From Kineosporia sp. NBRC 101731 (GTDB lineage Bacteria; Actinomycetota; Actinomycetes; Actinomycetales; Kineosporiaceae): a stretch of DNA of 64,000 nt. Positions 43,518-60,910 of this stretch are shown here, piece by piece (position 1 is the first letter of the stretch; every line of letters starts with the position of its first letter). The DNA is taken from contig NZ_BSTC01000007.1 of assembly GCF_030269305.1 (NCBI RefSeq), positions 186,001 to 250,000 of the forward strand, in the 5' to 3' direction. The notes beneath the pieces are model-generated. The model was not told the origin of the DNA and searched no databases. It saw only the letters and a program-made list of their open reading frames with translations. The position numbers were made by a program, and so were the translations under genes.

Positions 43518-44816
43518 ATGCACCCAGAATCCGGCCCGGCGTCCATCGGCGCGCAGATCCGGCGCCGGCGACTGGCGTCCGGTCTCTCCCTGGGCGGTCT
43601 CGCCGACCGCGTCCACTACAGCAAGGGCTACCTCAGCAAGATCGAGAACGGTTCCAAGCGGCCCGGCCCCGACCTGGTCCGACTCTGCGACGCCGCTCTC
43701 GGTGCCGGGGGAGAGCTCCGCCGTCTGGCCGAAACCGTCTCCACCTCAGAGCTTTCCGAAGCTTGCCGAGCTTCTGATCCAGACGGTGGCGTAGACGTGG
43801 CCGACGACGGCAGGCCCGGTCCCACCCTCGGCCGCCGCGAGGTCCTGGCCATCGGTGGTTCCCTTCCCCTTCTGGCCGCAGCCGGCCCCGAACGGCTGGC
43901 CACGGTGGCCGCCGACGGATCGATCACGACCGGGTTCACCGCGATGCTCGCCGAGCTGCGCAAGCTCGGCCAGAACCAGCCCCCGGGCCTGCTGCTGCCG
44001 ATCCTCGACATCCAGGTGCAGACGCTGCTGGCGCTGGCCCGGGCCGCCCGGGCGGACGACCGGGGCGCGCTGCTGATGCTCACGTCACGCTTCGCCGAGT
44101 ACACCGGGTGGATGGCTCAGGAGTCCGGCGACGACCGGGCCATGGTCCGCTGGACCGATCTGGCCGTGAGTTGCGCCGACGCGGCCGGCGACCGGGAACT
44201 GGCGGCCTACGCCCACATCCGGCACGCCAACGCGGCCCTGTACCGCGACGACGCCGTGTCCACCGTCGCCCTCGCCACCCGGGCCGAGCACGAGGCGCCG
44301 GCCGGTGGCCCGTCCTCGACGCGTGTGGGGGCCCTGGCCCTGCAGCGTCAGGCCCAGGGACTGGCGTTGCAGGGCCGGTACGACGACTGCCGGCGGGCCC
44401 TCGACCGGGCCGACGTCCTCTTCGACCGGGCCATCGGTGTCAACACCCCGCTGGGGCCGACGACGGTCGCCAACCCCAGCGACCTCGTGCTCGGCTGGTG
44501 CCTGCACGACCTGGGCCGCTCGCGCGAGGCGGTCCCGGTGCTCGAACGGCATCTGGCGCGGGTGCCGCAGCACGCCCGCCGGGCCCGGGCCCGGGTGAAG
44601 GGCCGCCTGGCCCTGGCCGCAGCCGGTGCCGGTGACCCGGACACCGCCTGCACGCTCGCGCACCAGGTACTGGACGACGCCGAGTACGTCGACTCCGCCA
44701 CCGTGCGGCACGACCTACGGCACCTGGGCCGGGCGCTCAACCGCTGGCGGGCCCGGCCCGAGGTACAGGCCGTCTCGCCGCGACTGGCCCAGGCGCTGCG
44801 CACCGCCGCGTCCTGA
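43518..44816 (+). CDS. XRE-type regulator with a C-terminal TPR region
   Basis: A 432-residue protein. The N-terminal helix-turn-helix (about 8-66: IGAQIRRRRLASGLSLGGLADRVHYSKGYLSKIENGSKRPGPDLVRLC) is followed by a twin-arginine-like GRREVLAIGGSLPLLAAAG segment. An all-helical TPR-like region (130-430) then has ALALQRQAQGLALQGRYDDCRRAL and LGWCLHDLGRSREAV. This layout is very common in actinomycetes, where some members sense peptides or regulate secondary metabolism. ATG 43518 follows GGGGAGAG. The regulated genes are unknown. Confidence 0.85.
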   Translation: MHPESGPASIGAQIRRRRLASGLSLGGLADRVHYSKGYLSKIENGSKRPGPDLVRLCDAALGAGGELRRLAETVSTSELSEACRASDPDGGVDVADDGRPGPTLGRREVLAIGGSLPLLAAAGPERLATVAADGSITTGFTAMLAELRKLGQNQPPGLLLPILDIQVQTLLALARAARADDRGALLMLTSRFAEYTGWMAQESGDDRAMVRWTDLAVSCADAAGDRELAAYAHIRHANAALYRDDAVSTVALATRAEHEAPAGGPSSTRVGALALQRQAQGLALQGRYDDCRRALDRADVLFDRAIGVNTPLGPTTVANPSDLVLGWCLHDLGRSREAVPVLERHLARVPQHARRARARVKGRLALAAAGAGDPDTACTLAHQVLDDAEYVDSATVRHDLRHLGRALNRWRARPEVQAVSPRLAQALRTAAS

Positions 44817-45196: not shown

Positions 45197-47839
45197 ATGA
45201 CCGCGGAGCAGCTCCCTGCCGCAGTCCCGACCGAAAACCAGCGCGACGTAGCGGTCATGGTTGAAACCCTGGTCGAGGCTGGGCTGAAGGCCCTTGACGA
45301 GTACGGTGCCTTCGATCAGGAGACGATCGACCACATCGTCAAGAAGGCCTCCGTCGCGGCGCTGGACCGGCACGCCGCCCTGGCGCAGCTCGCGGTGGAG
45401 GAGACGGGCCGCGGTGTCTTCGAGGACAAGGCCGTCAAGAACATCTTCGCCTGTGAGCACGTCACGCACAGCATGGCGAAACTTCGCACCGTCGGCGTGA
45501 TCAGCCAGGACGACATCACCGGGATCACCGAGATCGCCGACCCGGTGGGCGTGATCGCCGGGATCACGCCGGTCACCAACCCCACGTCGACGGCGATCTT
45601 CAAGGCTCTGCTGGCCCTGAAGACCCGTAACCCGATCGTGTTCGCGTTCCACCCCTCGGCCCAGCAGTGCAGCGTCGAGGCGGCCCGCATCGTGCGTGAC
45701 GCCGCGGTCGCGGCCGGGGCACCCGAGCACTGCATCCAGTGGATCGACCGGCCCTCGGTCGAGGCGACCACGGCTCTCATGCACCACCCGGGCATCTCCA
45801 CGATCCTCGCGACCGGTGGCAACGCCATGGTCCGGGCGGCGTACTCGGCGGGCAAGCCGGCTCTCGGTGTCGGTGCGGGCAACGTGCCCGCCTGGATCGA
45901 GAAGAGCGCCAAGCTGAAGCGGGCCGTCAACGACATCGTGCTGTCCAAGTCGTTCGACAACGGCATGATCTGCGCGTCCGAGCAGGCCGTCATCCTCGAC
46001 GAGGAGATCTACGACGCCGCCCTGGCCGAGTTCGGTCACCTGCACGCCTACCGGGCCACCAAGGACGAGAAGCGGAAGCTGGAGAAGTTCATCTTCGGCG
46101 CGACCGCCTACGGGAAGTCTTGCAGCGGAGCCAAGCTCAACCCCGACGTGGTGGGCAAGCCGCCGGTCTGGATCGCCGAGCAGGCCGGCTTCACGGTACC
46201 CGCCGACACCTCGATCATCCTCGCCGAGGTCGGCGAGGTCGGCCCGAACGAGCCGCTGACCCGGGAGAAGCTGTGCCCGGTCCTGGCCGTACTGCGGGTC
46301 GGCTCCCGTGAGGAGGGACTGCAGGCCTCCACGCAGATGGTGGAGTTCCACGGCCTCGGCCACAGCGCCGTGATCCACACCCAGGACGAGGACCTGGTCG
46401 TCGAGTTCGGCAAGCGGGTCAAGGCCGTGCGGGTGATCTGGAACTCGCCGTCCTCGCAGGGCGGCATCGGCGACATGTACAACTCCTTCGTCCCTTCGCT
46501 CACCCTCGGCTGCGGCAGCTACGGGCACAACTCGGTGTCGAACAACGTCTCCGCGGTCAACCTGATCAACATCAAGCGGATCGGAAGGCGCACCAACAAC
46601 ATGCAGTGGTTCAAGGTGCCCTCGCGGATCTACTTCGAGCCGCACGCCATCCGCTACCTCTCGGACATGCCCGACGTGCACCGGGTCACGATCGTCACCG
46701 ACCCCACCATGACCCGCCTGGGCTTCGTCGAGCGCATCGACCGGGTGCTCCAGCAGCGCCCGAACCGGGTCGTGCTGCAGATCATCGACGACGTGGAACC
46801 CGAACCGCAGATGACGACCGTCGACCGGGGCGCGGAACTGATGCGCTCCTTCCGGCCGGACACGATCATCGCGCTCGGTGGCGGATCGGCGATGGACGCG
46901 GCCAAGGTGATGTGGCTGCGCTACGAGCACCCCGAGGTCGACTTCGAGGACATGCGGGAGAAGTTCTTCGACATCCGCAAGCGGGCCTTCGCCTTCCCCG
47001 CGCTCGGTGAGAAGGCCCAGCTGGTCTGTGTGCCGACCACCTCCGGAACCGGCGCTGAGGTGACCCCGTTCGCGGTCATCACCGATCAGCGCACCGGGAA
47101 GAAGTACCCGCTCGCCGACTACGCCCTCACCCCGACCGTCGCGATCGTCGACCCGGCGCTGACGGCGAGCATGCCGCGCAAGATCGCCGCCGACAGTGGT
47201 TTCGACGCCCTCACGCACGCCATCGAGGCCTACGTGTCGGTGTACGCCAACGACTTCACCGACGGTCTGGCCCTGCACGCGATCCGGCTGATCTTCGAGA
47301 ACCTCGAGCAGTCCGTGCTGAACGGTGAGAGCGAAGCTCGCGAGCGCATGCACAATGCCGCGACCATCGCCGGAATGGCCTTCGGCAGTGCGTTCCTCGG
47401 TATCGTGCACGCCATGTCGCACACGCTCGGCGCCACGTTCCACGTCGCGCACGGTCGTACCAACGCGGTGCTGCTGCCGCACGTGATCCGCTACAACGGC
47501 TCGGCCCCGACGAAGCTGTCGGGCTGGCCGAAGTACGAGAGCTACCGGGCGCCGGAGCGGTTCGCCGACATCGCCCGCATGCTCGGCCTGAGCGCGTCCA
47601 CGCCTGAGGAGGCCGTGGAGGTACTGGCCACGGCGGTCGAGAAGCTGCGCACCACGGTCGGTATCGAGTCGTCGTTCGCCGAGATCGGCATCGACGAGCA
47701 GGCCTTCCTGGCCTCGCTGCCGCAGCAGGCACTCAACGCCTACGAGGACCAGTGTGCGCCGGCCAACCCGCGCATGCCGATGCTCGACGACATGCAGCAG
47801 CTGATGCGCGCGGCCTACTACGGCGAGAACAAGAGCTGA
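45197..47839 (+). CDS. adhE: Bifunctional acetaldehyde-CoA/alcohol dehydrogenase
   Basis: An 880-residue fusion of normal AdhE length. The N-terminal aldehyde dehydrogenase half (about 1-430) has GVIAGITPVTNPTST, the NAD loop and the active cysteine in FDNGMICASEQAV. The C-terminal iron alcohol dehydrogenase half has GGGSAMDAAKVMWL, metal ligands in GFDALTHAIEAYVS and the histidines in IVHAMSHTLGATFHVAHG. It reduces acetyl-CoA to ethanol and regenerates NAD+ under low oxygen. It is monocistronic with a strong terminator. It complements the nearby phosphoketolase and DevS-like kinase. Confidence 0.96.
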   Translation: MTAEQLPAAVPTENQRDVAVMVETLVEAGLKALDEYGAFDQETIDHIVKKASVAALDRHAALAQLAVEETGRGVFEDKAVKNIFACEHVTHSMAKLRTVGVISQDDITGITEIADPVGVIAGITPVTNPTSTAIFKALLALKTRNPIVFAFHPSAQQCSVEAARIVRDAAVAAGAPEHCIQWIDRPSVEATTALMHHPGISTILATGGNAMVRAAYSAGKPALGVGAGNVPAWIEKSAKLKRAVNDIVLSKSFDNGMICASEQAVILDEEIYDAALAEFGHLHAYRATKDEKRKLEKFIFGATAYGKSCSGAKLNPDVVGKPPVWIAEQAGFTVPADTSIILAEVGEVGPNEPLTREKLCPVLAVLRVGSREEGLQASTQMVEFHGLGHSAVIHTQDEDLVVEFGKRVKAVRVIWNSPSSQGGIGDMYNSFVPSLTLGCGSYGHNSVSNNVSAVNLINIKRIGRRTNNMQWFKVPSRIYFEPHAIRYLSDMPDVHRVTIVTDPTMTRLGFVERIDRVLQQRPNRVVLQIIDDVEPEPQMTTVDRGAELMRSFRPDTIIALGGGSAMDAAKVMWLRYEHPEVDFEDMREKFFDIRKRAFAFPALGEKAQLVCVPTTSGTGAEVTPFAVITDQRTGKKYPLADYALTPTVAIVDPALTASMPRKIAADSGFDALTHAIEAYVSVYANDFTDGLALHAIRLIFENLEQSVLNGESEARERMHNAATIAGMAFGSAFLGIVHAMSHTLGATFHVAHGRTNAVLLPHVIRYNGSAPTKLSGWPKYESYRAPERFADIARMLGLSASTPEEAVEVLATAVEKLRTTVGIESSFAEIGIDEQAFLASLPQQALNAYEDQCAPANPRMPMLDDMQQLMRAAYYGENKS

Positions 47840-48905: not shown

Positions 48906-48933
48906 CCTTCAGAGCCCTTCAGTGCCCTTCAGA
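48904..48933. repeat. Three 10-bp GCCCTTCAGA repeats over the MFS stop
   Basis: Copies begin at 48904, 48914 and 48924. The stop codon of the minus-strand exporter (48929-48931) is in the last copy. Confidence 0.75.
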
Positions 48934-50152
48934 CCGTAGAGGGTTCCGGCTGCGCGACGGCCCGCTCGCGAACGCGTTCGGCCCACCGCACCGTGGCCGG
49001 TACGGCCAGGCCGGTCACCGCGAACAGGGCACCGACCACCCACCAGCCGGGACGGCCCCACTGGATGCACAGGGCGATGAGCAGCGCCGGCCCGATGCTC
49101 ACTCCCAGCCCGAGGCCCATACCGAACAGTCCCTGGTACTGGCCCACCGCATGCGCCGGGGCCAGGGTGAAGGAGAGTTCGAAACCGCCTGCTGAGTGCC
49201 AGATCTCCCCGATCGTGTGGACGACGACCGCGGTCAGCAGCAGGAGCATCGCCAACCAGGTCGCCGCCCCCGCCATCAGGGAGATGGCCGCACAGGAGAT
49301 GAAGAAGGCGAAACCGGCCTTCCGGAAGGCGTTCGCGCCGGCGCCGGGGGTGTCGACGCCCGATCCCACCCGGACCTGGAAGAGAACGACGATCGCGGTG
49401 TTGACGAGCATGACCGCCGACACCGTCCAGTGCGGGGTGTCCGTGCGGCTGACCAGCCACAGCGGGACGGCTGCGGTGAGCACCCGGTACTGCACGGCCA
49501 TCAGGCCGTCGAGCACGGTGAGAACCAGGTAAGGACGATCGCGCAAGGCGATCCAGCGCGGGCCGGCCCCGGACGGGCGGGGGGCGACCCGGGGCAGGAA
49601 GAGCACGATCGCCGCGCAGGCGGCGTAGGACAGGGCACTGCCGGCGATCAGCAGGACGTAGGCGTTGTCGGTGTCGACCGCGACCCCCCAGCCGGCGAAC
49701 AGGGCACCGGCCGCGATCCCGAGGTTCGTCACCGAGCGCAGGTAGCCCCGGAACTTCGCCGGCCGGTCCCCGCCGTACTCCTGGATCAGGGGACTGCGGG
49801 CGGCCGGCCCGGCGGTCTGGGCGATGCTGCCCAGACTGACGAAGATCAGGAACGACCAGAAGTCGTTCGCGACGCACAGGCCTGCCATCGCCACCGCGCC
49901 GATCAGCAGGGTGGCGGTGTAGACGCTGCGGGCGCCGAGCCGGTCGGCCAGGTGTCCGGCGGGAATGCCCGACAGCAGGGCGACCGCGCCGGCGGCGCTC
50001 AGGCCGGCCCCGATCTGCCCGGCCGACAGGTCCACGATCCGGGTGAAGTAGAGAACCCCTGCGGTCAGGTAGATCCCGTACCCGGTCATGTTCACCAGGG
50101 TCGCGACGGCGAGCAGGCGAGGTGCACCCTTGTCGGGGAGCAACGCGGACAT
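48929..50152 (-). CDS. MFS transporter, probable exporter of the biosynthetic operon
   Basis: A 407-residue membrane protein with 12 predicted helices. The MFS signature after helix 2 is AGHLADRLGARSVYTATLL (about 66-84). ARSPLIQEYGGDRPAKFRGYLRSVTNLG in the first half also fits. The family includes drug and metabolite exporters. It is the last gene of the seven-gene minus-strand operon, 48 bases after the KAS III gene, so export of that operon's product or self-resistance is likely. Confidence 0.85.
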   Translation of the reverse strand: MSALLPDKGAPRLLAVATLVNMTGYGIYLTAGVLYFTRIVDLSAGQIGAGLSAAGAVALLSGIPAGHLADRLGARSVYTATLLIGAVAMAGLCVANDFWSFLIFVSLGSIAQTAGPAARSPLIQEYGGDRPAKFRGYLRSVTNLGIAAGALFAGWGVAVDTDNAYVLLIAGSALSYAACAAIVLFLPRVAPRPSGAGPRWIALRDRPYLVLTVLDGLMAVQYRVLTAAVPLWLVSRTDTPHWTVSAVMLVNTAIVVLFQVRVGSGVDTPGAGANAFRKAGFAFFISCAAISLMAGAATWLAMLLLLTAVVVHTIGEIWHSAGGFELSFTLAPAHAVGQYQGLFGMGLGLGVSIGPALLIALCIQWGRPGWWVVGALFAVTGLAVPATVRWAERVRERAVAQPEPSTV

Positions 50153-50200
50153 ATGCGTACCTTTCGGAAAGTCGGGCGGATGGTTATTGTGCCGTGCGGT

Positions 50201-51292
50201 TCACCGCGCCAGGACCATGTCCCGGCCCATGTCCCGGCCCACGTCCCGCCCCATGTCCCGGGCCAGTGGCCTGACATCCGAACGCGGGCCCGCCGGAGGG
50301 TGCATGCTCCAGCGCCCGAGGGTGACCCCGAGGTTCATGCCCCCGCCGAACCCGGCCAGCAGCAACAGGTCGCCCGGGGCGATCCGCCCGGCGCGGGCGG
50401 CCTCGTCGAGCGTGACCGGGATGGACGCGGAACCGGTGTTCCCGTAATGGCCCACGGTCAGGTGCAGGTTCGCCGCCCCCAGACCGAGCGTGCGCGACAG
50501 GTCGTTCAGCATGACGCCGTTGGCCTGGTGCGGCACCAGATGCTCGACGTCGGTGGCGGCGATCCCGCTGCTGGACAGGAGGTCGTGGATGGCGGCCGGC
50601 ACCTGACGGCCCACGAAGTCGCGCACACCCCGCCCGTCCATCTTGAAGTAGTGGTCACCGTCGCGCAGGGTGCTTTCCGTTGCCGGCCGGCGGCTGCCCC
50701 CGGCCGGGACACTGATCAGCGTGTGCTCGTCCCCGTGCCCGCGCAGATGCGTCCGGATCAGCCCGTGGGCGGGCGGGACCGGGCCGAGCACGACCGCCCC
50801 GGCCCCGTCGCCGAACAGGACGGCGGTCTTACGGTCGGAGTAGTCCAGGATCCGGGAGTAGATGTCGGCGCCGATCACCAGGGCGTGCCCGGTACCACCG
50901 CCGGTCCGCAGCAGCCCCTCGGCCATGGCCAGCGCGTAGACGAACCCGCTGCAGACGGCGTTGACGTCGACGGCGGCGGCGTTACGGGCCCCGACCAGGT
51001 GCTGAACGATGCTGGCGGTGGCCGGCTGGGGGTGATCGGGGGTGGAGGTGGCGACGATGATGTGATCCAGGTCGGAGGCGCAGATGCCGGCCGCCGTCAG
51101 GGCCCGGTCGGCGGCGGCAGCGGCCAGGTCCGAGGTCGCCTGACCGGGCGCGGCCCGGCGGCGCTCGCGGATGCCGGTCCGGCTCTCGATCCAGCCGGGA
51201 TCGACGCCGGCGGCCACCGCGATCTCGGCGTTACTCACGATCCGCTCGGGCAGGTAGGAACCGGTGCCGCGGATTCCGATGTTCGCAGACAT
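50201..51292 (-). CDS. Beta-ketoacyl-ACP synthase III-like enzyme
   Basis: A 363-residue thiolase-fold enzyme. The catalytic triad is complete: Cys114 in NAVCSGFVYA, His255 in VPHQANGV and Asn285 in GHYGNTGSAS. It starts IGIRGTGSYLPERIVSN, as FabH does. KAS III enzymes condense an acyl-CoA with malonyl-ACP or malonyl-CoA; secondary-metabolism members use unusual starters or form esters. No acyl carrier protein gene is in the operon. The C-terminus carries RDMGRDVGRDMGRDM, made by a 12-bp repeat. It starts 10 bases after the ATP-grasp gene. Confidence 0.92.
   Translation of the reverse strand: MSANIGIRGTGSYLPERIVSNAEIAVAAGVDPGWIESRTGIRERRRAAPGQATSDLAAAAADRALTAAGICASDLDHIIVATSTPDHPQPATASIVQHLVGARNAAAVDVNAVCSGFVYALAMAEGLLRTGGGTGHALVIGADIYSRILDYSDRKTAVLFGDGAGAVVLGPVPPAHGLIRTHLRGHGDEHTLISVPAGGSRRPATESTLRDGDHYFKMDGRGVRDFVGRQVPAAIHDLLSSSGIAATDVEHLVPHQANGVMLNDLSRTLGLGAANLHLTVGHYGNTGSASIPVTLDEAARAGRIAPGDLLLLAGFGGGMNLGVTLGRWSMHPPAGPRSDVRPLARDMGRDVGRDMGRDMVLAR
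50216..50263 (-). repeat. Four 12-bp repeats at the KAS III 3' end
   Basis: CATGTCCCGGCC appears twice perfectly and twice with changes (CACGTCCCGCCC, CATGTCCCGGGC). On the minus strand they encode the RDMG tail. Confidence 0.8.
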
Positions 51293-51302
51293 ACGTCGTC
51301 CT

Positions 51303-52556
51303 CTATTCGGTGTGCGCGTCGGCAGCGATGTCGAAGCGGATGGATTCGGTCAGTTTGATCGCCAGTTGCTTTGCCTGTGCTGTGGTTTCGGCCCCCACGA
51401 CGATCAGGCCGATCCGGTCGGCGGAACGGTGCAGGGCGGGCACGACATCGCCCGGGCCGGCGTTCAGCTCGCTGTAGAGCACCGCGGGGTGCTCACGTAC
51501 CTCGTCCCAGCCGTGAACGGCCTCGATCCGCCCGGGCGGGGGCGCCAGGTAACGCACCGCGGCACCCCGGGTCGGGGTCAGCGGGCCGGGCCGGTCCCGG
51601 CGTCCCAGCAGGTCGTCGAAGACCTGACCGAACAGCTCCAGGCCGGGGATCGCGTGGGCGAGCATGGTGTGGATGAAGTCGCCCCCGAACCGGGTGTGCA
51701 CCTCGCCGAGCACCACCCCGTCCCGGGTCAGCCACAGCTCGACGTGAAAGCCCCCGGCGCGCAGCCCGAGTTCCCGTAGGGCGGCCGTGACCGTGTGCTC
51801 GATCTCCTCCTGGCGGCCGGGCGGGAGATCGGCGGGCAGGGCGTGGGCGATCTCGACGAAGTACGGCGGGTCCACCTTCTCCTTCTCGGTCACGGCCAGG
51901 ATCACCGGGCGGCCGTCGAGGAAGATGCCCTCGACGCTGTACTCAGGGCCGTCGACGAACTCCTCGACCAGGAACGGGGCCGTGCCGGGCAGCAGGTCCA
52001 GCGCTGCGGGGAGCCCGGCGGTGTCGAACACCTGGCTCACGCCGATGCTGCCCATCGCGTCCCGCGGTTTGACGATCCACGGACCGGTGCCCGATCGCAG
52101 GAAGTCCTCGGCGTCGGCCTGGTCCGCGCACAGGCGCACGGCCGGCTGGGCGAATCCCGCGGCGGCCAGGGCGGCCCGGCCGATGTCCTTGGTCCGCACC
52201 CGGTGAACGGCCTCGACCGGGTTGCCGACGGCTCCGAGGGCCTGCGCGGTCTCGGCCACCGTCACCTGAGCCATCTCCTGGAGGGCGAACACCGCGTCGA
52301 TCCGGTGGCCGGAACCGACCTGGTTGCGCGCCCATTCGACAGTCTCCCCGGCGGGCAGGAAACTCACCGGGGCGGTGGCGCCGGCCGCCGCGACGACGGC
52401 GGGAGTGGCCAGCAGCGCCTCCTGCGCGTTGGTGACGTAGGTGTGGATTCCTCGCGCGCGGGCCTGCCCGAGCGCCTGCAGGGCCATGTCGGTGCTCATG
52501 GCCACGGCCCGGGCGCCGCCGACGAAGAGCAGGGTCGGGGGTGTCTCGTCACTCAT
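51303..52556 (-). CDS. ATP-grasp ligase (biotin-carboxylase-like, amino-acid ligase type)
   Basis: A 417-residue ATP-grasp enzyme. The N-domain opens TLLFVGGARAVAMSTDMALQAL. The ATP-binding part has GPWIVKPRDAMGSIGVSQVFD, FLVEEFVDGPEYSVEGIFL, GGFHVELWLTRDG, and the metal site VLGEVHTRFGGDFIHTM. This layout is typical of L-amino-acid ligases that join a carboxylate to an amine. With the oxoamine synthase upstream, it could attach an amino acid to the ketone product. GGAGAG precedes the ATG. The gap before it (52557-52643) is filled by a repeat array. Confidence 0.85.
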   Translation of the reverse strand: MSDETPPTLLFVGGARAVAMSTDMALQALGQARARGIHTYVTNAQEALLATPAVVAAAGATAPVSFLPAGETVEWARNQVGSGHRIDAVFALQEMAQVTVAETAQALGAVGNPVEAVHRVRTKDIGRAALAAAGFAQPAVRLCADQADAEDFLRSGTGPWIVKPRDAMGSIGVSQVFDTAGLPAALDLLPGTAPFLVEEFVDGPEYSVEGIFLDGRPVILAVTEKEKVDPPYFVEIAHALPADLPPGRQEEIEHTVTAALRELGLRAGGFHVELWLTRDGVVLGEVHTRFGGDFIHTMLAHAIPGLELFGQVFDDLLGRRDRPGPLTPTRGAAVRYLAPPPGRIEAVHGWDEVREHPAVLYSELNAGPGDVVPALHRSADRIGLIVVGAETTAQAKQLAIKLTESIRFDIAADAHTE

Positions 52557-52600
52557 CAGGTCTCTCCGGAAGGTGTGGGGGTGATGACCGGGACGCGGTC

Positions 52601-52648
52601 GGGAAGGTCAGGAAGGTCGGGAAGGTCAGGAAGGTCGGGAAGGTCAGG
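52601..52648. repeat. Repeat array of GGGAAGGTCAGGAAGGTC
   Basis: The 18-bp unit, itself two near-identical 9-mers, occurs about 2.7 times. The carboxylase stop codon (52644-52646) is inside it. Confidence 0.85.
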
Positions 52649-54626
52649 GAAGGACGGGGCCCGTGTCCGGGATTGGCTCCAGGTCGATCAGGACCTGGTC
52701 GGCCGCGACGACGTCACCGACGGTGCAGCGGATCCCGGCGATCACCCCGGAACGTGGCGCCGGCAGCGGAGTCTCCATCTTCATGGCCTCCACCACGGCG
52801 ACGACGTCGCCGGCGCTGATCGTGTCGCCGACGGCCACGGGCAGGGCGACGACGGCGCCCGGCATGCCCGATCGCACGACGTCGCCGGCGGTGTCCGCGG
52901 CGTGGACGGTGAAGGACGGGACGCCCAGGGCGACCCGGTACCCGTCCACGACGATCTCGTACCCGGAAGGGGTGCGCAGGCCGCTCCAGTCGCAGGTGTC
53001 GGCCGTCCCTTCGTGCAGGCCGTTGCGCCGGGTCACCGTGACGTCGATCCGGCGCCCGTCCACCTCGACGCAGACCCCGTCGGCGTCGACGCGGACGATG
53101 TTCGCCGGGGTGTGGGTGTCGTGGCCCTCCACGGTGACGACGCGGCCCAGGGGCGCGGCCGGGTCGAGGTCCTGGCGGTCGAGCGGCCCGACGGACCCGT
53201 TCCACGGTGACGTGGCGAGGTCGCCGCCGGAGGTGGCCTGGACGGCCGCCACGCAGGCGGCGGCCGTCGCGGTCCGGCTCCGGGTGAACTGGTCGATCGC
53301 GTCGACCAGATGGGTGTCGACCAGGCCCGCCACCACCCGGGGGTGATCCAGCAACTCGCCCACGAACCCCAGGTTGGTCGTCAGCCCGACGACCCGGGTG
53401 TCGCGGACCGCCTGCCGGAGCCGGCGCAGGGCGGAGGACCGGTCCGGGCCCCGGGCGATGAGTTTGGCGATCATCGGGTCGTAGAACGACGACACCACCC
53501 CGGTCCGGTCGAAGGCCGCCTCCACCCGGATCTTCCCGGGCCAGCGCACCACCCGGGCCGTGCCGGGGGCGGGCTGGAATCCGGCGTCGGGGTCCTCGGC
53601 ATACACCCGGCACTCGATGGCGTGACCGGTGACACCGATCCGGTCCTGGGTCAGCGGCAGCGGCTCGCCCGCGGCGACCCGCAGCTGCCACTCGACCAGG
53701 TCTACCCCGGTGATCTCCTCGGTGACCGGATGTTCCACCTGCAGGCGGGTGTTGGCCTCCAGGAAGTAGAAGTGGCCGTCCGGGTCGAGGATGAACTCGA
53801 AGGTGCCGGCATTGACGTATCCGATCGACGCCGCCCCCCGTACGGCCGCGGCCAGGAGGGTGTCGCGCACGCTCGCGGGCAGATCGGCGGCGGGCGCCTC
53901 CTCGACGATCTTCTGGTGACGTCGCTGCAGGGAACACTCACGCTCGTACAGGTGCACCACGTGGCCGAAGGTGTCACCGAACACCTGGACCTCGATGTGG
54001 CGGGGCCGGGAGACGTAGCGCTCGGCCAGGAGCCGTCCGTCACCGAAGCTGCTGCGGGCGAGCCGGACCGATTCGGCGACGGCCGCGGCCAGTTCCCCGG
54101 GCTCGGTGACCACCCGCATCCCCTTGCCCCCACCGCCGGCCACGGGCTTGAGGATCACCGGGTACCCGATCCGCCCGGCGTCGGCCGCCAGGACCTCCGG
54201 CGACTCGGTGGCCAGCGGTGATCCGGGAAGGATCGGGACCCCGGCCTGCCCCATCAGGGCACGGGCCGTGGCCTTGTCGCCCATCGCGCAGATCGTGTCC
54301 GGGCCGGGGCCGATGTAGACCAGGCCCGCGTCGGTCACGGCGGCCGCGAAATCAGGGTTCTCCGAGAGGAACCCGTAACCGGGATGAACGCTGTCGCAGC
54401 CGGTCGCGAGCGCCGCCTCCACCAGCCGCGGGATGCTCAGGTAGCTGTCGGTGGCCGGCCCGGGCCCGATCCGGACCACGTCGACGGCCCCGGTCAGGTG
54501 TGCGGCCGTGGCGTCGGCGTCGGAGTGCACCGCCACGTACTCCACGCCCAGCCGGCGGCAGGTACGGGCGACCCGCCGGGCGATCTCCCCACGGTTGGCG
54601 ATCAGAACGCGTTTCAGCATCGTCAT
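52644..54626 (-). CDS. Acyl-CoA carboxylase alpha subunit (biotin carboxylase and carrier)
   Basis: A 660-residue protein. The biotin carboxylase part (about 1-450) has KRVLIANRGEIARRVARTCR, HPGYGFLSENPDFA, VAGGGGKGMRVV, ERECSLQRRHQKIVEEAPA and EANTRLQVEHPVTE. The C-terminal carrier has VVEAMKMETPL with biotinyl-Lys616. The length fits the MccA/AccA3 type. The start overlaps the beta subunit stop (TGATG), so the subunits are made in equal amounts. It supplies the carboxyl group for malonyl- or similar CoA. Confidence 0.93.
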   Translation of the reverse strand: MTMLKRVLIANRGEIARRVARTCRRLGVEYVAVHSDADATAAHLTGAVDVVRIGPGPATDSYLSIPRLVEAALATGCDSVHPGYGFLSENPDFAAAVTDAGLVYIGPGPDTICAMGDKATARALMGQAGVPILPGSPLATESPEVLAADAGRIGYPVILKPVAGGGGKGMRVVTEPGELAAAVAESVRLARSSFGDGRLLAERYVSRPRHIEVQVFGDTFGHVVHLYERECSLQRRHQKIVEEAPAADLPASVRDTLLAAAVRGAASIGYVNAGTFEFILDPDGHFYFLEANTRLQVEHPVTEEITGVDLVEWQLRVAAGEPLPLTQDRIGVTGHAIECRVYAEDPDAGFQPAPGTARVVRWPGKIRVEAAFDRTGVVSSFYDPMIAKLIARGPDRSSALRRLRQAVRDTRVVGLTTNLGFVGELLDHPRVVAGLVDTHLVDAIDQFTRSRTATAAACVAAVQATSGGDLATSPWNGSVGPLDRQDLDPAAPLGRVVTVEGHDTHTPANIVRVDADGVCVEVDGRRIDVTVTRRNGLHEGTADTCDWSGLRTPSGYEIVVDGYRVALGVPSFTVHAADTAGDVVRSGMPGAVVALPVAVGDTISAGDVVAVVEAMKMETPLPAPRSGVIAGIRCTVGDVVAADQVLIDLEPIPDTGPVLP

Positions 54627-56230
54627 CACATCCTGAAGACACCGAAACGGGTCTCCTGCTTGGGTGCGCCGGCGGCCAGGGCCAGGCACACGGTGAGCCA
54701 GCTGCGGGTGTCGACCGGGTCGACGACGGCGTCGACCCAGAGGCGGGCGGCGAAGTACAGAGGCTGTGACTGCTTCTCGTAGGAGTCGAGAATCGGCCGC
54801 TTGATGGCCTCCTCCTCCTCGGCCGACAGGCTTCGTCCCTCCTTGGCCAGCTGATCGCCGCGGATCTGGGCCATCACCGAGGCCGTCTGCTCGGCCCCCA
54901 CCACGGTGGATTTAGCGCTCGGCCACATGGCCATCAGCGTCGGGCCCATCGAACGGCCGCACATGGCGAAGTTCCCGGCGCCGAAACTGCCGCCGATGAC
55001 GAGACTGAATTTCGGGACCCGGGCGCAGGAGACGGCGTTGACGAGTTTCGCACCGTGCTTGGTGATGCCGGCGGCCTCGTACTCGGCCCCCACCATGAAC
55101 CCGTTGATGTTGTGCAGGAACAGCAGGGGGATGTCCCGCTGGGCACAGATCTCGATGAAGTTGGCGGCTTTCTGGGCGCTCTCGGGGAAGAGGACACCGT
55201 CGTTGATCAGAATCCCGACCGGGTAGCCGCCGATGTCACCCGTGCCGCAGACCATGGTGGGGCCGAAGCGGCTGCGGTACTCGGAGAACTCGCTGCCGTC
55301 CAGCAGCCGGGCCAGTATCTCCCGGGCCGGGATCTGCTCACGCAGGCCGGCGCTGATGATGCCGGGCAGTTCCGCCGGGTCGTACAGAGGTGGACGGGGT
55401 GGACGCGGTGGGGCCGTCGTCGTCGGGGAACCGGTGCGGGCGGCGATCTCCCGCACCAGTTCCAGGGCGTGGTCGTCGTTCTCGGCGAGGTGATCGGCGA
55501 CGCCGGTGACCCGGGTGTGCAGGTCGGCGCCGCCGAGCGTCTGCGCGTCGACCACCTCTCCCGTCGCGGCCCGGACCAGGGCCGGGCCGCCGAGGAACAC
55601 CGTGCCGGTACCGCGCACGATCACCGTCTCGTCACACATGGCCGGCACGTAGGCGCCGCCGGCCGTGCACGAGCCCATCACGGCCGCGATCTGGGGCAGT
55701 CCCATCGCCGACATCTCGGCGATGTTGCGGAACATCCGGCCCAGGTGGTGCTCGTCCGGGAACAGGTCTTCCTGCAGCGGCAGGTAGACCCCGCCGGAGT
55801 CGACCAGGTAGATGCACGCCAGGCCGTTCTCCCGGGCAATGTCCTGGGCCCGCAGATGTTTACGGACCCCGAGGGGGAAGTAGGTGCCGCCCTTGACCGT
55901 GGCGTCGTTGGCGATCACCATGGTCGGCCGGCCGCAGACCACCCCGATCCCGGTGACCAGGGCCGCCGACGGCACGGCCTGGTCGTAGACGTCGTGCGCG
56001 ACCAGCTGACCGACCTCCAGGAACGGTGTGCCCGGGTCGAGGAGCCGGCTGATCCGCTGCCGGGCGGTCAGCTTGCCACGGCCGGTGTGCCGGGCCTGTG
56101 AGCGGTCGTCGCCCCCGGCCACGGCCGCCGCGCGGGCGCCGGCAATGACGCGGCGTTGCTGCTCGAAGGCGTCGGCGTTGCGCCGGAACCTCGCCGAGCC
56201 GGTGTCGATATGGGTGTCCAGCGTGGTCAT
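54626..56230 (-). CDS. Acyl-CoA carboxylase beta subunit (methylcrotonyl-CoA carboxylase-like)
   Basis: A 534-residue carboxyltransferase. ANDATVKGGTYFPLGVRKHL, ACIYLVDSGGVYLPLQED, IAAVMGSCTAGGAYVPAM and TVFLGGPALVRAATGEVVDAQTLGG match the MCC beta type more closely than the acetyl-CoA or propionyl-CoA type. The second oxyanion region is INGFMVGAEYEAAGITKHGAKLV. The substrate may be methylcrotonyl-CoA or another branched acyl-CoA. It lies 11 bases after the oxoamine synthase gene. A 9-bp repeat gives PPRPPRPP near residue 275. Confidence 0.92.
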   Translation of the reverse strand: MTTLDTHIDTGSARFRRNADAFEQQRRVIAGARAAAVAGGDDRSQARHTGRGKLTARQRISRLLDPGTPFLEVGQLVAHDVYDQAVPSAALVTGIGVVCGRPTMVIANDATVKGGTYFPLGVRKHLRAQDIARENGLACIYLVDSGGVYLPLQEDLFPDEHHLGRMFRNIAEMSAMGLPQIAAVMGSCTAGGAYVPAMCDETVIVRGTGTVFLGGPALVRAATGEVVDAQTLGGADLHTRVTGVADHLAENDDHALELVREIAARTGSPTTTAPPRPPRPPLYDPAELPGIISAGLREQIPAREILARLLDGSEFSEYRSRFGPTMVCGTGDIGGYPVGILINDGVLFPESAQKAANFIEICAQRDIPLLFLHNINGFMVGAEYEAAGITKHGAKLVNAVSCARVPKFSLVIGGSFGAGNFAMCGRSMGPTLMAMWPSAKSTVVGAEQTASVMAQIRGDQLAKEGRSLSAEEEEAIKRPILDSYEKQSQPLYFAARLWVDAVVDPVDTRSWLTVCLALAAGAPKQETRFGVFRM

Positions 56231-56241
56231 CGGTCGTCCCG

Positions 56242-57459
56242 TCAGGCCGGCTGTTCAGCGGGCACGTTGAGCTCTTTCAGCAGGTTGGCGAACTCTTCGA
56301 TCTGCGCGGCGCTCATGTTCGCCCGCAGCATCAGGCGCAGTCCGGCCCGGCCCCGCCCGATGATCGGGAAGAAGATCGGCGAGGCGTAGTAGCCACGGTC
56401 GAGCAGCGCGGCGGCCAGGTTGACGGTCGCGGTCTCCGAGCCGACCTGGACGAACCGGATGGGCAGGCCGTCGCCGCTCAGGTCGGTCTGGACCATGCTG
56501 TCGAAGAGGTCGACGTTGGCCTGGAGACGTCGCTGCAGCTGGGCCAGCTCGTCGGTGCGGTGCAACTGGGCCGAGGCGATGACCGCACCCAGGCCGGCCG
56601 TGTTGATGCGCTGCGACCACATCAGCGGACCGTTGCGGATCGCGGTGTCGTACCGGGCCTGGGATCCGGTCGGGCCGAGGAAGATCGCTCCGCCGGAGGC
56701 CCCGAAACCCTTGTTCAGCGAGGTGATGACCACGGTGCGGTCGTTGATCTGGCCCAGTTCCTCCAGGACGGCCCCGCGGCCGTTGGTACCGAGCGTCGAG
56801 ATCGAGTGGGCCTCGTCGAACACCAGGAACAGACCGTAGCGTTCCTGCAGGCGAAGGAGCTCGGGGATCGGCGCCCGGCCCCCGGTGCTGTAGACGCCGT
56901 CGGCGACGTAGGCGACCCGGGGGTGGGTGCGGCACAGCTCCTCGAGCGCCTCGACGTCGTTGTGCGCGATCGTCACCACCTCGGCCTCGTCGGCCACGGA
57001 GGCCTTCATGGCGTTCAGGCAGAAGTGTGCGTTCTTGTCGAACACCATCAGTGGGGCGATGTTCTCGGTGAAGAGACCGGATGCGATCAGCGGCAGGGTG
57101 ACCCAGGACGCGACGGCGCACGACGCGGTCGTCACCGCGGTCACGCCGAACAGGTCGGACAGCTCGTCCTCGGCGGCCCGCAGCGAGCCGAACCGGATCC
57201 GCATCCGCGAGGTCGAGGTGTTCAGGGAACCCTCGGCCAGCACCCCGTCGGCGGCGGCCTGGACGATCTGCGGGTGGGTGTCGAGGCCCAGGTAGGAGTA
57301 GGAGGACATGTTGACGAACTCGTGACCGTCACTCAGGCGACGGTGCCGGCCGTCGCCCAGTCCCGCGACGACCAGGTCGAACATGCCGGCCTGATCGGTG
57401 ACGTTCCAGAAGTCGTCGCTGATGCGGGCCGACTTCGCGATGTTCATGTACGTGTGCAC
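56242..57459 (-). CDS. Alpha-oxoamine synthase (PLP-dependent)
   Basis: A 405-residue fold-type-I PLP enzyme. It shows the family's FVNMSSYSYLGLDTHP opening (about 48-63), the stacking histidine His145 in FDKNAHFCLNAM, DEAHS (215-219) and the PLP lysine Lys250 in TSLNKGFGASGG. Members (KBL, AONS, ALAS, SPT, CqsA) decarboxylatively join an amino acid and an acyl-CoA to make an alpha-amino ketone. It has no biotin- or haem-pathway neighbours. It sits in an operon with KAS III, carboxylase and ATP-grasp genes, so a specialised metabolite is likely. Confidence 0.9.
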   Translation of the reverse strand: MHTYMNIAKSARISDDFWNVTDQAGMFDLVVAGLGDGRHRRLSDGHEFVNMSSYSYLGLDTHPQIVQAAADGVLAEGSLNTSTSRMRIRFGSLRAAEDELSDLFGVTAVTTASCAVASWVTLPLIASGLFTENIAPLMVFDKNAHFCLNAMKASVADEAEVVTIAHNDVEALEELCRTHPRVAYVADGVYSTGGRAPIPELLRLQERYGLFLVFDEAHSISTLGTNGRGAVLEELGQINDRTVVITSLNKGFGASGGAIFLGPTGSQARYDTAIRNGPLMWSQRINTAGLGAVIASAQLHRTDELAQLQRRLQANVDLFDSMVQTDLSGDGLPIRFVQVGSETATVNLAAALLDRGYYASPIFFPIIGRGRAGLRLMLRANMSAAQIEEFANLLKELNVPAEQPA

Positions 57460-57498
57460 GGAGTTTTCCCCTTGTGACGGTGATCAGGAAAGAAGTGA

Positions 57499-58419
57499 TC
57501 AGGAATAGGTGTAGAAGCCGCGACCGGTCTTGCGGCCGAGGATCCCCGACTCGACCATGCGCAGCAGCGTGGGAGGCGGGGCGTAGAGCGGTTCCTTGAA
57601 CTCGTCGAAGAGGGCCCGGGCGATCGCGACGACGACGTCCAGGCCGACGAGGTCCGCGAGCCGCAGCGGGCCGACGGGATGGTTGCAGCCCAGTTCCATG
57701 GCCCGGTCGACGAGTTCGGCGGTCACGAAACCGTTCTCCACCATCCGCACGGCGGCCAGGAGGTACGGGATCAGGAGGGCATTGACGACGAAGCCGCTGC
57801 GGTCGGAGACCTGGATGGCCTGCTTGCCGAGGGTCTGGCCGACGAAGGCCTCGACCCGGTCGGTCACGTCGTCGGTGGTGAACAGCGTCGGGATGATCTC
57901 GACCAGTGGCAGCGCCACCACCGGGTTGAAGAAGTGCACGCCGATGACCTGCTCCGGGCGGTTGGTCGCCGCGGCGAGCTGGGTCACGCTGATGGCCGAG
58001 GTGGTCGAGGCCAGGACGGCGTCGGGGCCGAGCACGGCGTCGAGCTCGGCGAAGAGCTTCAGCTTGAGGGCCTTGTCCTCGGGTATCGCCTCGATGACGA
58101 GCTGGCGGTCGGCCAGGAGTGACAGGTCCCCGGTCACGTGGATCCGGTCCAGAGCCGCGTCCCGCTGGGCGGCGGTGATCGTTCCCTTGGCCACCCGGCG
58201 CTCCAGGGTGGCACCCAGCCGCTGCGGGGCGGACCGCACCGAGGACTCCCGGGAGACCGCGAGGGTCACCGAGACTCCCTGCAGGGCAAGGAGTTCGCAG
58301 ATGCCGCTACCCATGGTCCCGGATCCGACCACGCCGACGCGCTCGAAACCGACCCCTGCGGCAGTCCTGGGTGAACCCAGAACCGGCCGCCTTTCCAGCG
58401 TTCCTGTCCGTGAATGCAT
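57499..58419 (-). CDS. 3-hydroxyacyl-CoA dehydrogenase (3-hydroxybutyryl-CoA type)
   Basis: A 306-residue enzyme. The NAD motif is VGVVGSGTMGSGICE (about 28-42). The catalytic part has STTSAISVTQLAAATNRPEQVIGVHFFNPV and VNALLIPYLLAAVRMVENG. The C-terminal GCNHPVGPLRLADLVGLDVV fits too. It interconverts 3-hydroxyacyl- and 3-ketoacyl-CoA. The ATG follows GGGGAG. It is the first gene of the operon, 39 bases before the oxoamine synthase. It may reduce the KAS III product. Confidence 0.92.
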   Translation of the reverse strand: MHSRTGTLERRPVLGSPRTAAGVGFERVGVVGSGTMGSGICELLALQGVSVTLAVSRESSVRSAPQRLGATLERRVAKGTITAAQRDAALDRIHVTGDLSLLADRQLVIEAIPEDKALKLKLFAELDAVLGPDAVLASTTSAISVTQLAAATNRPEQVIGVHFFNPVVALPLVEIIPTLFTTDDVTDRVEAFVGQTLGKQAIQVSDRSGFVVNALLIPYLLAAVRMVENGFVTAELVDRAMELGCNHPVGPLRLADLVGLDVVVAIARALFDEFKEPLYAPPPTLLRMVESGILGRKTGRGFYTYS

Positions 58420-58583: not shown

Positions 58584-59033
58584 TCAGAGACTGCTGGAAG
58601 CGGTGGTCGGTTGACCCACGTTCCCGGCCAGCACGTCGGCGACGGTGAACCGGCCCAGATGGGAGGCCAGGGCATCGGCCACGCCGTGGTCGAGCTGGGC
58701 GAGGGCCTTCTGCACGCCGCGCCCGACGGCACACGTCGGATCGGGGCCGTGCAGACCCAGAACCGGGTCGTCGCCCTGCAGGAGGCTCCAGACGCGGCTC
58801 AGGGGAATGGATTCCGGTGGCACCACGAGTTCCCAGCCGCCGTTCACCCCGGGTTGCGAGCGAACGAACCCGGCTGCTCGCAGCGGGCCCAGGACGCGCC
58901 GGACGTAGACGGCGTTGACCCGGGTGGAGCCGGAGAGCTCCGCGGAGTTGACGGGCGCGCCGTCGGTACGCCCGGCCAGATAGGTCAGCACGTGGACCGC
59001 GACGGCGAACTGGGTGTTGGTGGATCGGGCCAT
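58584..59033 (-). CDS. Rrf2-family transcriptional regulator (YwnA-like)
   Basis: A 149-residue protein with a winged helix (about 1-80): TQFAVAVHVLTYLAGRTDG, NSAELSGSTRVNAVYVRRVLGPLRAAGFV and PGVNGGWELVVPP. It has only one conserved-area cysteine (PTCAVGRG, about 100) and no three-cysteine cluster, so an iron-sulfur centre is unlikely. YwnA/HypR-like members respond to thiol stress and often regulate an adjacent NAD(P)-binding gene. That fits the decayed gene on the other side of a clear operator. Confidence 0.88.
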   Translation of the reverse strand: MARSTNTQFAVAVHVLTYLAGRTDGAPVNSAELSGSTRVNAVYVRRVLGPLRAAGFVRSQPGVNGGWELVVPPESIPLSRVWSLLQGDDPVLGLHGPDPTCAVGRGVQKALAQLDHGVADALASHLGRFTVADVLAGNVGQPTTASSSL

Positions 59034-59054
59034 GGCCCCATCTTGCCATTTCGC

Positions 59055-59092
59055 AATCATCATGGCTACGGTTAATTGCAATCATGATGATT
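59055..59092. promoter_or_regulatory. Operator candidate for the Rrf2 regulator
   Basis: AATCATCATG (59055-59064) and CATGATGATT (59083-59092) are a perfect 10-bp inverted repeat separated by 18 bases. CAATCAT also occurs as a direct repeat (59054 and 59079). The site fills the 73-bp gap between the divergent Rrf2 gene and the decayed oxidoreductase and is unusually AT-rich. Confidence 0.7.
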
Positions 59093-59651: not shown

Positions 59652-60910
59652 CGGAGAGCCGCCGGCGACGGGTGCTCGTCCTGGTGGTCCTGGCCGCGTG
59701 CGTCGCCCTCGGGCCGCTGTCCACCGACGTCTACGTACCCGGATTGCCCGACCTGGCCGGCGATCTGGGGGCATCGGCCTCCGCGGTGCAGCTGACCGTC
59801 ACGGCCTGCCTGGTCGGGCTGGCCGCCGGCCAGTTACTGGCTGGTCCGCTGAGCGACGCCCGGGGCCGGCGCGGCCCGCTGCTGTTCGGGCTCGCGCTCT
59901 ACACCCTGGCCGGGTTGCTGTGTGCGGCCGCCCCCACGGTCGCCCTGCTGGTGGTGCTGCGGGCCGTCCAGGGGATCGGTGGTGCCTTCGCGGTCGTCAT
60001 CGCCTATGCCTACGTCCGCGACCGGTACAACGGAGGCCAGGCCGCGGCCTACTTCTCCCTGATGCTGTCGGTCACCGGACTGGCCCCGGTGCTCGCCCCG
60101 CTGGCCGGCGGCCTCGTCCTCGAGGTGTCCGGCTGGAGGGAGATCTTCATCGGGCTGGGCGGTCTCAGCGCCCTGGTGCTGGCCGGTGCGCTGCGCCTGC
60201 CGGAGAGCCACCCGGCCTCACGGCGCAGCCACGCCGGGGCGCGCGATATCGGGAAGGTGTACCGCCGCCTGCTGAAAGACCCCGTCCTGATGGGGTACAC
60301 GCTGACGAATGCGCTGGTCTTCGCGGCGATGTTCGCCTACATCGCCGGATCGCCCTTTGTGCTGCAACAGCTGCACGGCCTGTCGGTACAGCAGTACAGC
60401 GTGGTGTTCGCCGTCAACGGGGCCGGGATCATGGCCGCGGCCCAGATCGGCGGGGCTCTGGTGCGACGATTCGGTGCCCACACCCTGCTGGGTGCGGGCG
60501 TCGTCCTCTCGTTCACCGGTTCGGCCCTGACACTCGTGGTCGCGCTCGCGGGAGCCGGGGTGTGGCCGACCCTCGTCGCCCTGTTCCTGATGGTGGCCGG
60601 GGTGGGGCTGGTCCTGCCCAACGTCCCGGCGCTGGCCCTGGAACACCACGGAGCGAGCGCCGGTGCGGCCGCGGCCCTGCTCGGCTGCGCCCAGTTCCTC
60701 CTCGGAGGCCTGGCCGCCCCGCTGGTCGGGATCGGGGGATCGCGCAGCGCAGTCCCGATGGCCGTGGTGATGGCCGGTTTCACCGTGGCGGCGGTGCTGA
60801 CGTTCGCCTGGTGCACCCGCACCCGCACCCGCACCCGGTCGGGCCGGGGATCCGGCGGTGGCGAAAGGCACGTCGCACCGGTTGTTCTGGCCGCTTCCGA
60901 GGTGACCTGA
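59648..60910 (+). CDS. MFS drug-resistance transporter, Bcr/CflA type
   Basis: A 420-residue membrane protein with 12 helices. The Bcr/CflA opening is ALGPLSTDVYVPGLPDLAGDL. AGQLLAGPLSDARGRRGPLLFG is the MFS motif A, and VLRAVQGIGGAFAVVIAYAYVRD motif C-like. GTG 59648 overlaps the pseudogene stop. The tail TRTRTRTRSGRGS comes from a 6-bp repeat at 60815-60838. Such proteins export chloramphenicol, bicyclomycin or other drugs. It may have been co-regulated by the Rrf2 protein. Confidence 0.88.
   Translation: MTESRRRRVLVLVVLAACVALGPLSTDVYVPGLPDLAGDLGASASAVQLTVTACLVGLAAGQLLAGPLSDARGRRGPLLFGLALYTLAGLLCAAAPTVALLVVLRAVQGIGGAFAVVIAYAYVRDRYNGGQAAAYFSLMLSVTGLAPVLAPLAGGLVLEVSGWREIFIGLGGLSALVLAGALRLPESHPASRRSHAGARDIGKVYRRLLKDPVLMGYTLTNALVFAAMFAYIAGSPFVLQQLHGLSVQQYSVVFAVNGAGIMAAAQIGGALVRRFGAHTLLGAGVVLSFTGSALTLVVALAGAGVWPTLVALFLMVAGVGLVLPNVPALALEHHGASAGAAAALLGCAQFLLGGLAAPLVGIGGSRSAVPMAVVMAGFTVAAVLTFAWCTRTRTRTRSGRGSGGGERHVAPVVLAASEVT
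60815..60838 (+). repeat. Four 6-bp ACCCGC repeats at the MFS 3' end
   Basis: The last copy reads ACCCGG. They encode the Thr-Arg tail of the Bcr/CflA transporter. Confidence 0.7.

Follow-up and report, generated by a model that had tools for sequence, protein, structure and literature searches.

A 64,000-nucleotide stretch of the Kineosporia sp. NBRC 101731 genome (contig NZ_BSTC01000007.1, positions 186,001 to 250,000; 'the window', whose coordinates are used below) carries seven adjacent, tightly packed minus-strand genes at 48929..58419, identified from open reading frames and Pfam and NCBIfam assignments. These genes probably form a specialised-metabolite operon without non-ribosomal peptide synthetase (NRPS) or polyketide synthase (PKS) modules, which would make and export a small amino-ketone, likely as a dipeptide. 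We favour, with reasonable rather than high confidence, a scheme in which an alpha-oxoamine synthase (AOS) condensation is fed by a carboxylase and followed by amide ligation and export. The predicted enzyme set is unlike that of the described pathways compared with it.

From its upstream end, the operon encodes a 3-hydroxyacyl-CoA dehydrogenase (HBDH; 306 aa, 57499..58419; NCBIfam PRK07819, 396 bits against a cut-off of 319), the AOS (56242..57459), a carboxyltransferase beta subunit (CT; 534 aa, 54626..56230) of a biotin-dependent carboxylase resembling 3-methylcrotonyl-CoA carboxylase (MCC), its alpha subunit with biotin carboxylase and biotin carrier domains (BC; 661 aa, 52644..54629; Pfam Biotin_carb_N/C, CPSase_L_D2 and Biotin_lipoyl), an ATP-grasp ligase of the L-amino acid ligase (LAL) type (417 aa, 51303..52556), a 3-ketoacyl-acyl carrier protein (ACP) synthase III (KAS III; 363 aa, 50201..51292; TIGR00747, 300 bits against 292) and a major facilitator superfamily (MFS) transporter that is a putative exporter (407 aa, 48929..50152; Pfam MFS_1). 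An earlier note on this DNA had described a compact operon of these seven genes with gaps of at most 87 bases, one stop/start overlap and intact catalytic residues, and this description holds. Pfam and NCBIfam agree with the gene identities, all seven genes are open with no internal stops, and the intergenic gaps from HBDH to MFS measure 39, 11, -4, 87, 10 and 48 bases, the -4 being a GTGA overlap. AOS Lys250 and Asp215, KAS III Cys114, His255 and Asn285, the BC biotin Lys617, and HBDH His162 and Glu174 are all present, as expected of the active sites of these families. The G+C content of the operon is 0.707, compared with 0.701 for the window; the host genome comprises 8.26 Mb in 88 contigs.

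Conservation of the operon and its core

Short exact peptides of the AOS were scanned against 84,980 species, each represented by a single genome, a design that recovers only relatives containing those peptides. The scan gave 53 loci, 28 with an AOS 55–78% identical to that of the window and 25 at 41–45%. Together with the window, the 28 closer loci make up a 29-locus set that spans Kitasatospora, Streptomyces, Microtetraspora, Amycolatopsis, Actinomadura, Nocardia, Rhodococcus, Chromobacterium and Burkholderiaceae; broken genes in the loci were left unmended. The carboxylase pair lies in the AOS gene run at 25 of the 29 loci (including L030 and L045, with broken frames) and an MFS-like gene at 27. 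At 12 loci, one with broken frames, an HBDH adjoins the AOS or shares its gene run; the ligase occurs at 8, and KAS III at 4, namely the window and three related Amycolatopsis. Because the carboxylase is present at 25 loci, we read the core as AOS, carboxylase and exporter, with KAS III, HBDH and ligase as apparent additions of some lineages.

Gene order supports conservation of the operon as a unit, the lack of which in other genomes would, by the earlier note, have refuted the cluster reading. The full seven-gene order recurs in the three Amycolatopsis loci (L013, L017 and L021), which argues that the operon is more than chance; these loci adjoin in the AOS tree and are therefore counted as one further lineage. 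Elsewhere the arrangement varies. Seven loci of Kitasatospora, Streptomyces and Microtetraspora read XRE regulator-HBDH-AOS-MFS-CT-BC; Chromobacterium, Burkholderiaceae, Rhodococcus and a single Actinomadura have AOS-MFS-CT-BC; two Nocardia neocaledoniensis have MFS-AOS-CT-BC; a Kitasatospora (L020) has AOS-CT-BC-ligase-MFS; and two Actinomadura and Nocardia crassostreae have acyl-CoA dehydrogenase-AOS-ligase-MFS and no carboxylase.

The AOS is rare in its class, with matches at E <= 1e-90 in at least 3 of 394 genomes, the host included and the other two only 41–43% identical, and none above 37% identity was found in five other sampled genomes of the genus. Such a patchy distribution is expected for secondary metabolism. 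A search of 392 genomes taken for Streptomyces with Alb29, an AOS introduced below, gave at least six matches, five of them at loci with AOS, MFS, CT and BC (three apparently the same as L016, L018 and L019); the sixth, L138, has an Alb29-like AOS and lacks the carboxylase. In this search and in the class-level AOS and CT samples few candidates per genome were scored, making the tallies lower bounds.

An AOS related to Alb29

The AOS passes the NCBIfam subfamily PRK07505 (511 bits, cut-off 342) and falls below the cut-offs for bioF (138 of 426 bits), KBL (105 of 460), SPT (100 of 500), CqsA-type enzymes (90 of 428) and ALAS (76 of 339). Its closest solved relatives in the Protein Data Bank (PDB) are Alb29 chains (417–420 bits), the name of three of them being inferred from near-identity to 8XHA. 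8XHA is Alb29, the AOS of the albogrisin pathway of Streptomyces albogriseolus, which is reported to use L-glutamate (PMC11906848). Window AOS and Alb29 share 51% identity over 391 positions. Identity to the window AOS is 75–78% for Amycolatopsis L013 and Kitasatospora L014, 62% for Chromobacterium L026, 42% for the KtmB-type enzyme of L096 and 26% for a KBL.

In maximum-likelihood trees the cluster AOSs group with Alb29 in a single clade (99/97) that excludes the KtmB-type, aldolase-type and BioF/KBL rows. Together with the failed cut-offs, this placement rules out a BioF/KBL-type AOS, and the grouping with biotin or glycine-catabolism enzymes that the earlier note named as a refutation is not seen. 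Alb29 sits on a long branch; one tree places it inside an open fork and in the other the cluster rows split from it at just 78/53. Outgroup labels follow NCBIfam, by which the KBL rows pass their cut-off and the BioF-like rows, which are partial proteins, do not; the KtmB label of L096–L098 is based on gene content. The AOS tree was built without the near-copies L011, L028, L033 and L036 and without 17 of the 25 aldolase-type rows, and the trees omit L030, whose CT is split in two, L045, where all frames are broken, and L063, which has only a fragment of the AOS.

Window AOS and Alb29 have an LN[ST]S..R stretch in common, where KtmB-type enzymes read WLVTS and the aldolase type LDHC, and this might faintly hint at an amino acid other than that used in the ketomemicin (ktm) pathway. 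A scan for AOS residues marking a dicarboxylate acyl pocket yielded five weak positions, including Ser360, which is Glu in Alb29 and L138.

A distinct group of MCC-like carboxyltransferases

Both carboxylase subunits find their best PDB match in MCC, the CT in the beta subunit 3u9r (656 bits) and the BC in the alpha subunit 3u9s (510 bits). Against geranyl-CoA carboxylase the CT scores 419 bits and against 1vrg, the highest-scoring chain of the canonical propionyl type, 245; on these scores a canonical propionyl-type carboxylase was rejected. CT matches at E <= 1e-120 occur in at least 114 of 197 genomes of the class, the host included. In a CT tree, 23 cluster CTs split cleanly from 29 MCC-like CTs of other class genomes (SH-aLRT 100), to which the window CT is 53–58% identical. 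The 29 comparison enzymes are the best-scoring loci, are MCC-like by sequence only, and leave aside a second tier at 43–47% identity in the same genomes and the geranyl-CoA carboxylases.

Fifty-two CT positions are group-specific, each at least 85% conserved within either group and different between the two; changes include Tyr168->Arg, Asn344->Asp, His357->Asn, Gln373->His and Trp434->Ala. The MCC-like stretch GNYxMCGRAYxPRFLW reads GNFAMCGRSMGPTLMA in the window CT and is altered in all 23 readable cluster CTs. We infer that the cluster CT carboxylates an enoyl-CoA other than 3-methylcrotonyl-CoA, and the group may thus have a new acyl-CoA substrate. MCC chemistry is carboxylation at the gamma carbon, and by analogy the cluster CT would also act there.

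Three loci (L023, L024 and L035, the two Actinomadura and Nocardia crassostreae) have an acyl-CoA dehydrogenase in place of the carboxylase and also lack HBDH and KAS III. Their AOSs group with those of Amycolatopsis (97/93), so that the swap looks derived; it would be sensible if the dehydrogenase supplied an equivalent acyl donor. For the L035 dehydrogenase, the best NCBIfam match is glutaryl-CoA dehydrogenase Acd (58 bits against a cut-off of 470), six other acyl-CoA dehydrogenases outrank the best glutaryl one in the PDB, and Asp aligns with the usual catalytic Glu of these enzymes.

KAS III, HBDH, ligase and exporter

The KAS III likely makes a 3-ketoacyl-CoA precursor, from which HBDH is likely to produce the 3-hydroxyacyl-CoA. 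Three other HBDH matches at E <= 1e-30 occur in the host genome (best 55% identical, one with an internal stop), and the operon gene is an extra copy. The ligase has the ATP-grasp domain (Pfam ATP-grasp_4) and LAL_C2 domain expected of an L-amino acid ligase, and its best PDB match is the L-amino acid ligase BL00235 (75 bits); it would likely form an amide bond to the amino-ketone, giving a putative pseudo-dipeptide. The MFS protein is 63–76% identical to those in the operons of six of the seven other ligase loci and 31% in the seventh, L020. Since the pairing of ligase and MFS type largely tracks a single AOS clade, it is not independent evidence.

Proposed pathway and alternatives

Gene content, intact motifs, conservation and family placement are the observations from which we infer every substrate, the order of steps, the carboxylation site, a dehydration outside the operon, export and the product. 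KAS III would build a 3-ketoacyl-CoA, acetoacetyl-CoA in the simplest case, and HBDH would reduce it, the two enzymes thus forming a dedicated 3-hydroxyacyl-CoA supply. Dehydration of this to an enoyl-CoA would fall to a crotonase encoded elsewhere in the genome, and the MCC-like carboxylase would turn the enoyl-CoA into a dicarboxylic mono-CoA thioester. The AOS would then join an alpha-amino acid to the carboxylated acyl-CoA by decarboxylative condensation, yielding an amino-keto acid with loss of the amino acid carboxyl; the LAL-type ligase would add an amino acid via an amide bond, and the MFS protein would export the product. The smallest carboxylase-bearing cluster consists of AOS, carboxylase and exporter, and the simplest reading is thus that the AOS takes the carboxylase product as its acyl donor.

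One more specific version of this pathway is conceivable, though we regard it as speculative. A neofunctionalised MCC would gamma-carboxylate crotonyl-CoA, supplied by KAS III, HBDH and a dehydratase, to glutaconyl-CoA, from which the AOS and an amino acid would give 6-amino-5-oxo-hex-3-enoic acid, an electrophilic amino-enone. This compound would be exported free in the ligase-less lineages and masked as a dipeptide where the LAL-type ligase is present; in the two Actinomadura and Nocardia crassostreae, a glutaryl-CoA-acting dehydrogenase would give the same acyl donor without a carboxylase.

Several observations weigh against a carboxylase-fed AOS. Two other chains score close to the MCC match of the CT, namely 9tps (639 bits), by name a propionyl-CoA carboxylase beta, and 4q0g (629 bits), by name a probable acetyl-/propionyl-CoA carboxylase AccD1, and MCC likeness is no proof of gamma-carboxylation. 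By Pfam, no dehydratase is encoded among the operon genes; among the 29 loci KAS III occurs only in the window and its three Amycolatopsis counterparts, and the carboxylase itself is missing from the three dehydrogenase loci. We also found no second MCC-like CT in the host genome, the next best being 36% identical, so that a role in leucine breakdown is possible. An MCC operon for leucine or isovalerate breakdown that has picked up its neighbouring genes would be primary metabolism; in its favour, the only MCC-like CT found in the genome lies here. It is improbable given that the cluster CT stands apart from the 29 MCC-like enzymes by 52 diagnostic changes and has the AOS as its constant partner.

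The two acetyl/propionyl names would also suit a pathway in which KAS III receives malonyl- or methylmalonyl-CoA from the carboxylase and the extended, reduced 3-hydroxyacyl-CoA passes to the AOS, so that the product would be a hydroxylated amino-ketone lacking the additional carboxyl group. All enzymes for this route lie in one operon, and the KAS III passes the cut-off for FabH, whose members normally use malonyl-ACP. We nevertheless consider it rather unlikely, if somewhat less so than the leucine explanation, since the CT is so much closer to MCC beta than to the best canonical propionyl type, stays with the AOS at 21 loci that lack KAS III, and is accompanied by five other Carboxyl_trans matches, of whatever type, in the host genome. 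A CT nearest to MCC beta is an unlikely supplier of malonyl-CoA to KAS III, and the frequency of the carboxylase (25 of 29 loci) relative to KAS III (4) and HBDH (12) indicates that the carboxylase, not KAS III, adjoins the AOS step. The order given in the earlier note, with carboxylation before Claisen extension, is accordingly taken as probably wrong; its reading of a jointly conserved AOS operon, in which ligation and export are probable, stands in outline.

A ketomemicin-like operon, in which a succinyl-type CoA and an amino acid (arginine, for instance) yield a ketomethylene pseudo-peptide, would share the pairing of AOS and ATP-grasp ligase described for ktm (PMC11943689). It has about as little probability as the leucine explanation: the aldolase, MaoC dehydratase, zinc-type dehydrogenase and PGM1-type ligase, all four present in Salinispora L096, are absent from the operon genes, and the AOS lies outside the KtmB-type clade. 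In place of these alternatives we retain the carboxylase-fed AOS condensation.

Neighbouring genes and related clusters

Just upstream of the operon lies a gene for an Rrf2-type protein, a possible regulator (58584..59063, minus strand; Pfam Rrf2), for which no match of at least 80 bits was found in the other AOS loci searched. Farther upstream, the MFS gene at 59672..60910 is treated as unrelated, being 29–34% identical to the MFS proteins of ligase-less loci and 52–53% to other L061/L022 genes. On the other side of the operon, the plus strand encodes an AdhE-type bifunctional acetaldehyde-CoA/alcohol dehydrogenase (45197..47839; PRK13805, 1,384 bits, cut-off 951), whose sole match of at least 80 bits in the other AOS loci is a 31% identical one in L051. 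A TIR-domain protein (TIR_2; 41954..43252, plus strand) adjoins an NsdA-family regulator at 43518..44816.

The 25 loci with an AOS at 41–45% identity were considered as ktm clusters and rejected: their gene content differs, and separate ktm-like loci occur in three of five Salinispora genomes, on which grounds we assign them to a different, aldolase-type group. This second AOS cluster (L037–L044, L046–L060, L064 and L065) occurs in Streptomyces, Kitasatospora, Micromonospora and Salinispora and comprises a cupin, AOS, HpcH aldolase, OCD-type dehydrogenase, a weak, below-cut-off CP-ATP-grasp match and MaoC, often with an M24 peptidase; the contents of L048 and L043 were read by Pfam, those of the remaining loci from similarity groups. 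In Nocardia crassostreae (L024:1764-13745), two different AOS genes occupy one plus-strand run together with genes for an FAD oxidoreductase, epimerase, aminotransferase, UDP-glucose-type dehydrogenase, acyl-CoA dehydrogenase, ligase and MFS protein. The Alb29-like AOS locus L138 (1414-17998) also holds a cytochrome P450, a lysine/ornithine N-monooxygenase, an MFS protein, two further pyridoxal phosphate enzymes and a PreATP-grasp protein, and is possibly an albogrisin-type cluster. A 384-aa gene with no Pfam match stands beside the ktm-like operon of L096 (2014-3165, minus strand).

Comparison with known systems

We found no description of an AOS-carboxylase operon in the Creative Commons-licensed part of PubMed Central, a scope that leaves most subscription journals outside, and this absence is no proof of novelty. 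Stand-alone AOS pathways yield pseudopeptides and metabolic inhibitors of the arphamenine, ketomemicin and dynaplanin types. The earlier note suggested that standard cluster finders could overlook the window operon. The ktm pathway has six genes, for an aldolase, AOS, dehydratase, ATP-grasp ligase, amidinotransferase and dehydrogenase, was found by antiSMASH, and resembles the window operon in its NRPS-independent combination of a stand-alone AOS with an ATP-grasp ligase (PMC11943689). The acyl-CoA supply differs, with aldolase, dehydratase and dehydrogenase in ktm and KAS III, HBDH and carboxylase in the window, as does the ligase, which is PreAtp-grasp plus PGM1_C in the ktm-like L096 and ATP-grasp_4 plus LAL_C2 here. 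L096 further encodes a zinc-type dehydrogenase, an HpcH aldolase and a MaoC protein, and shares at least the aldolase, AOS and MaoC genes with L097 and L098. None of the ktm aldolase, MaoC dehydratase, dehydrogenase and amidinotransferase was recognised by Pfam among the window operon genes, the amidinotransferase being unrecognised by Pfam in L096 too. These missing partners, with an AOS 42% identical to the KtmB type of L096 and in another clade (99/97), largely exclude membership of ktm.

The dyn pathway of dynaplanin biosynthesis, from rare actinomycetes, likewise has a small cluster with a stand-alone AOS; it needs only the AOS and a GNAT protein, and antiSMASH missed it (PMC9239090). Its second essential gene, the GNAT acetyltransferase, sets it apart, since Pfam finds none among the window operon genes. 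Alb29 is the closest characterised AOS found, and the nearest Alb29-like locus, L138 (AOS 59% identical to Alb29), differs in its P450, N-monooxygenase and PreATP-grasp protein and shows no carboxylase match over the 19 kb analysed. From MCC, which both window subunits match best, the operon differs in that its CT belongs to a separate group and has an AOS partner. The operon family would thus add a carboxylase-fed branch to the stand-alone AOS pathways, in both Actinomycetota and Pseudomonadota, and its natural deletions and swaps (of ligase, KAS III and HBDH, and of carboxylase or acyl-CoA dehydrogenase) make the chemistry testable gene by gene.

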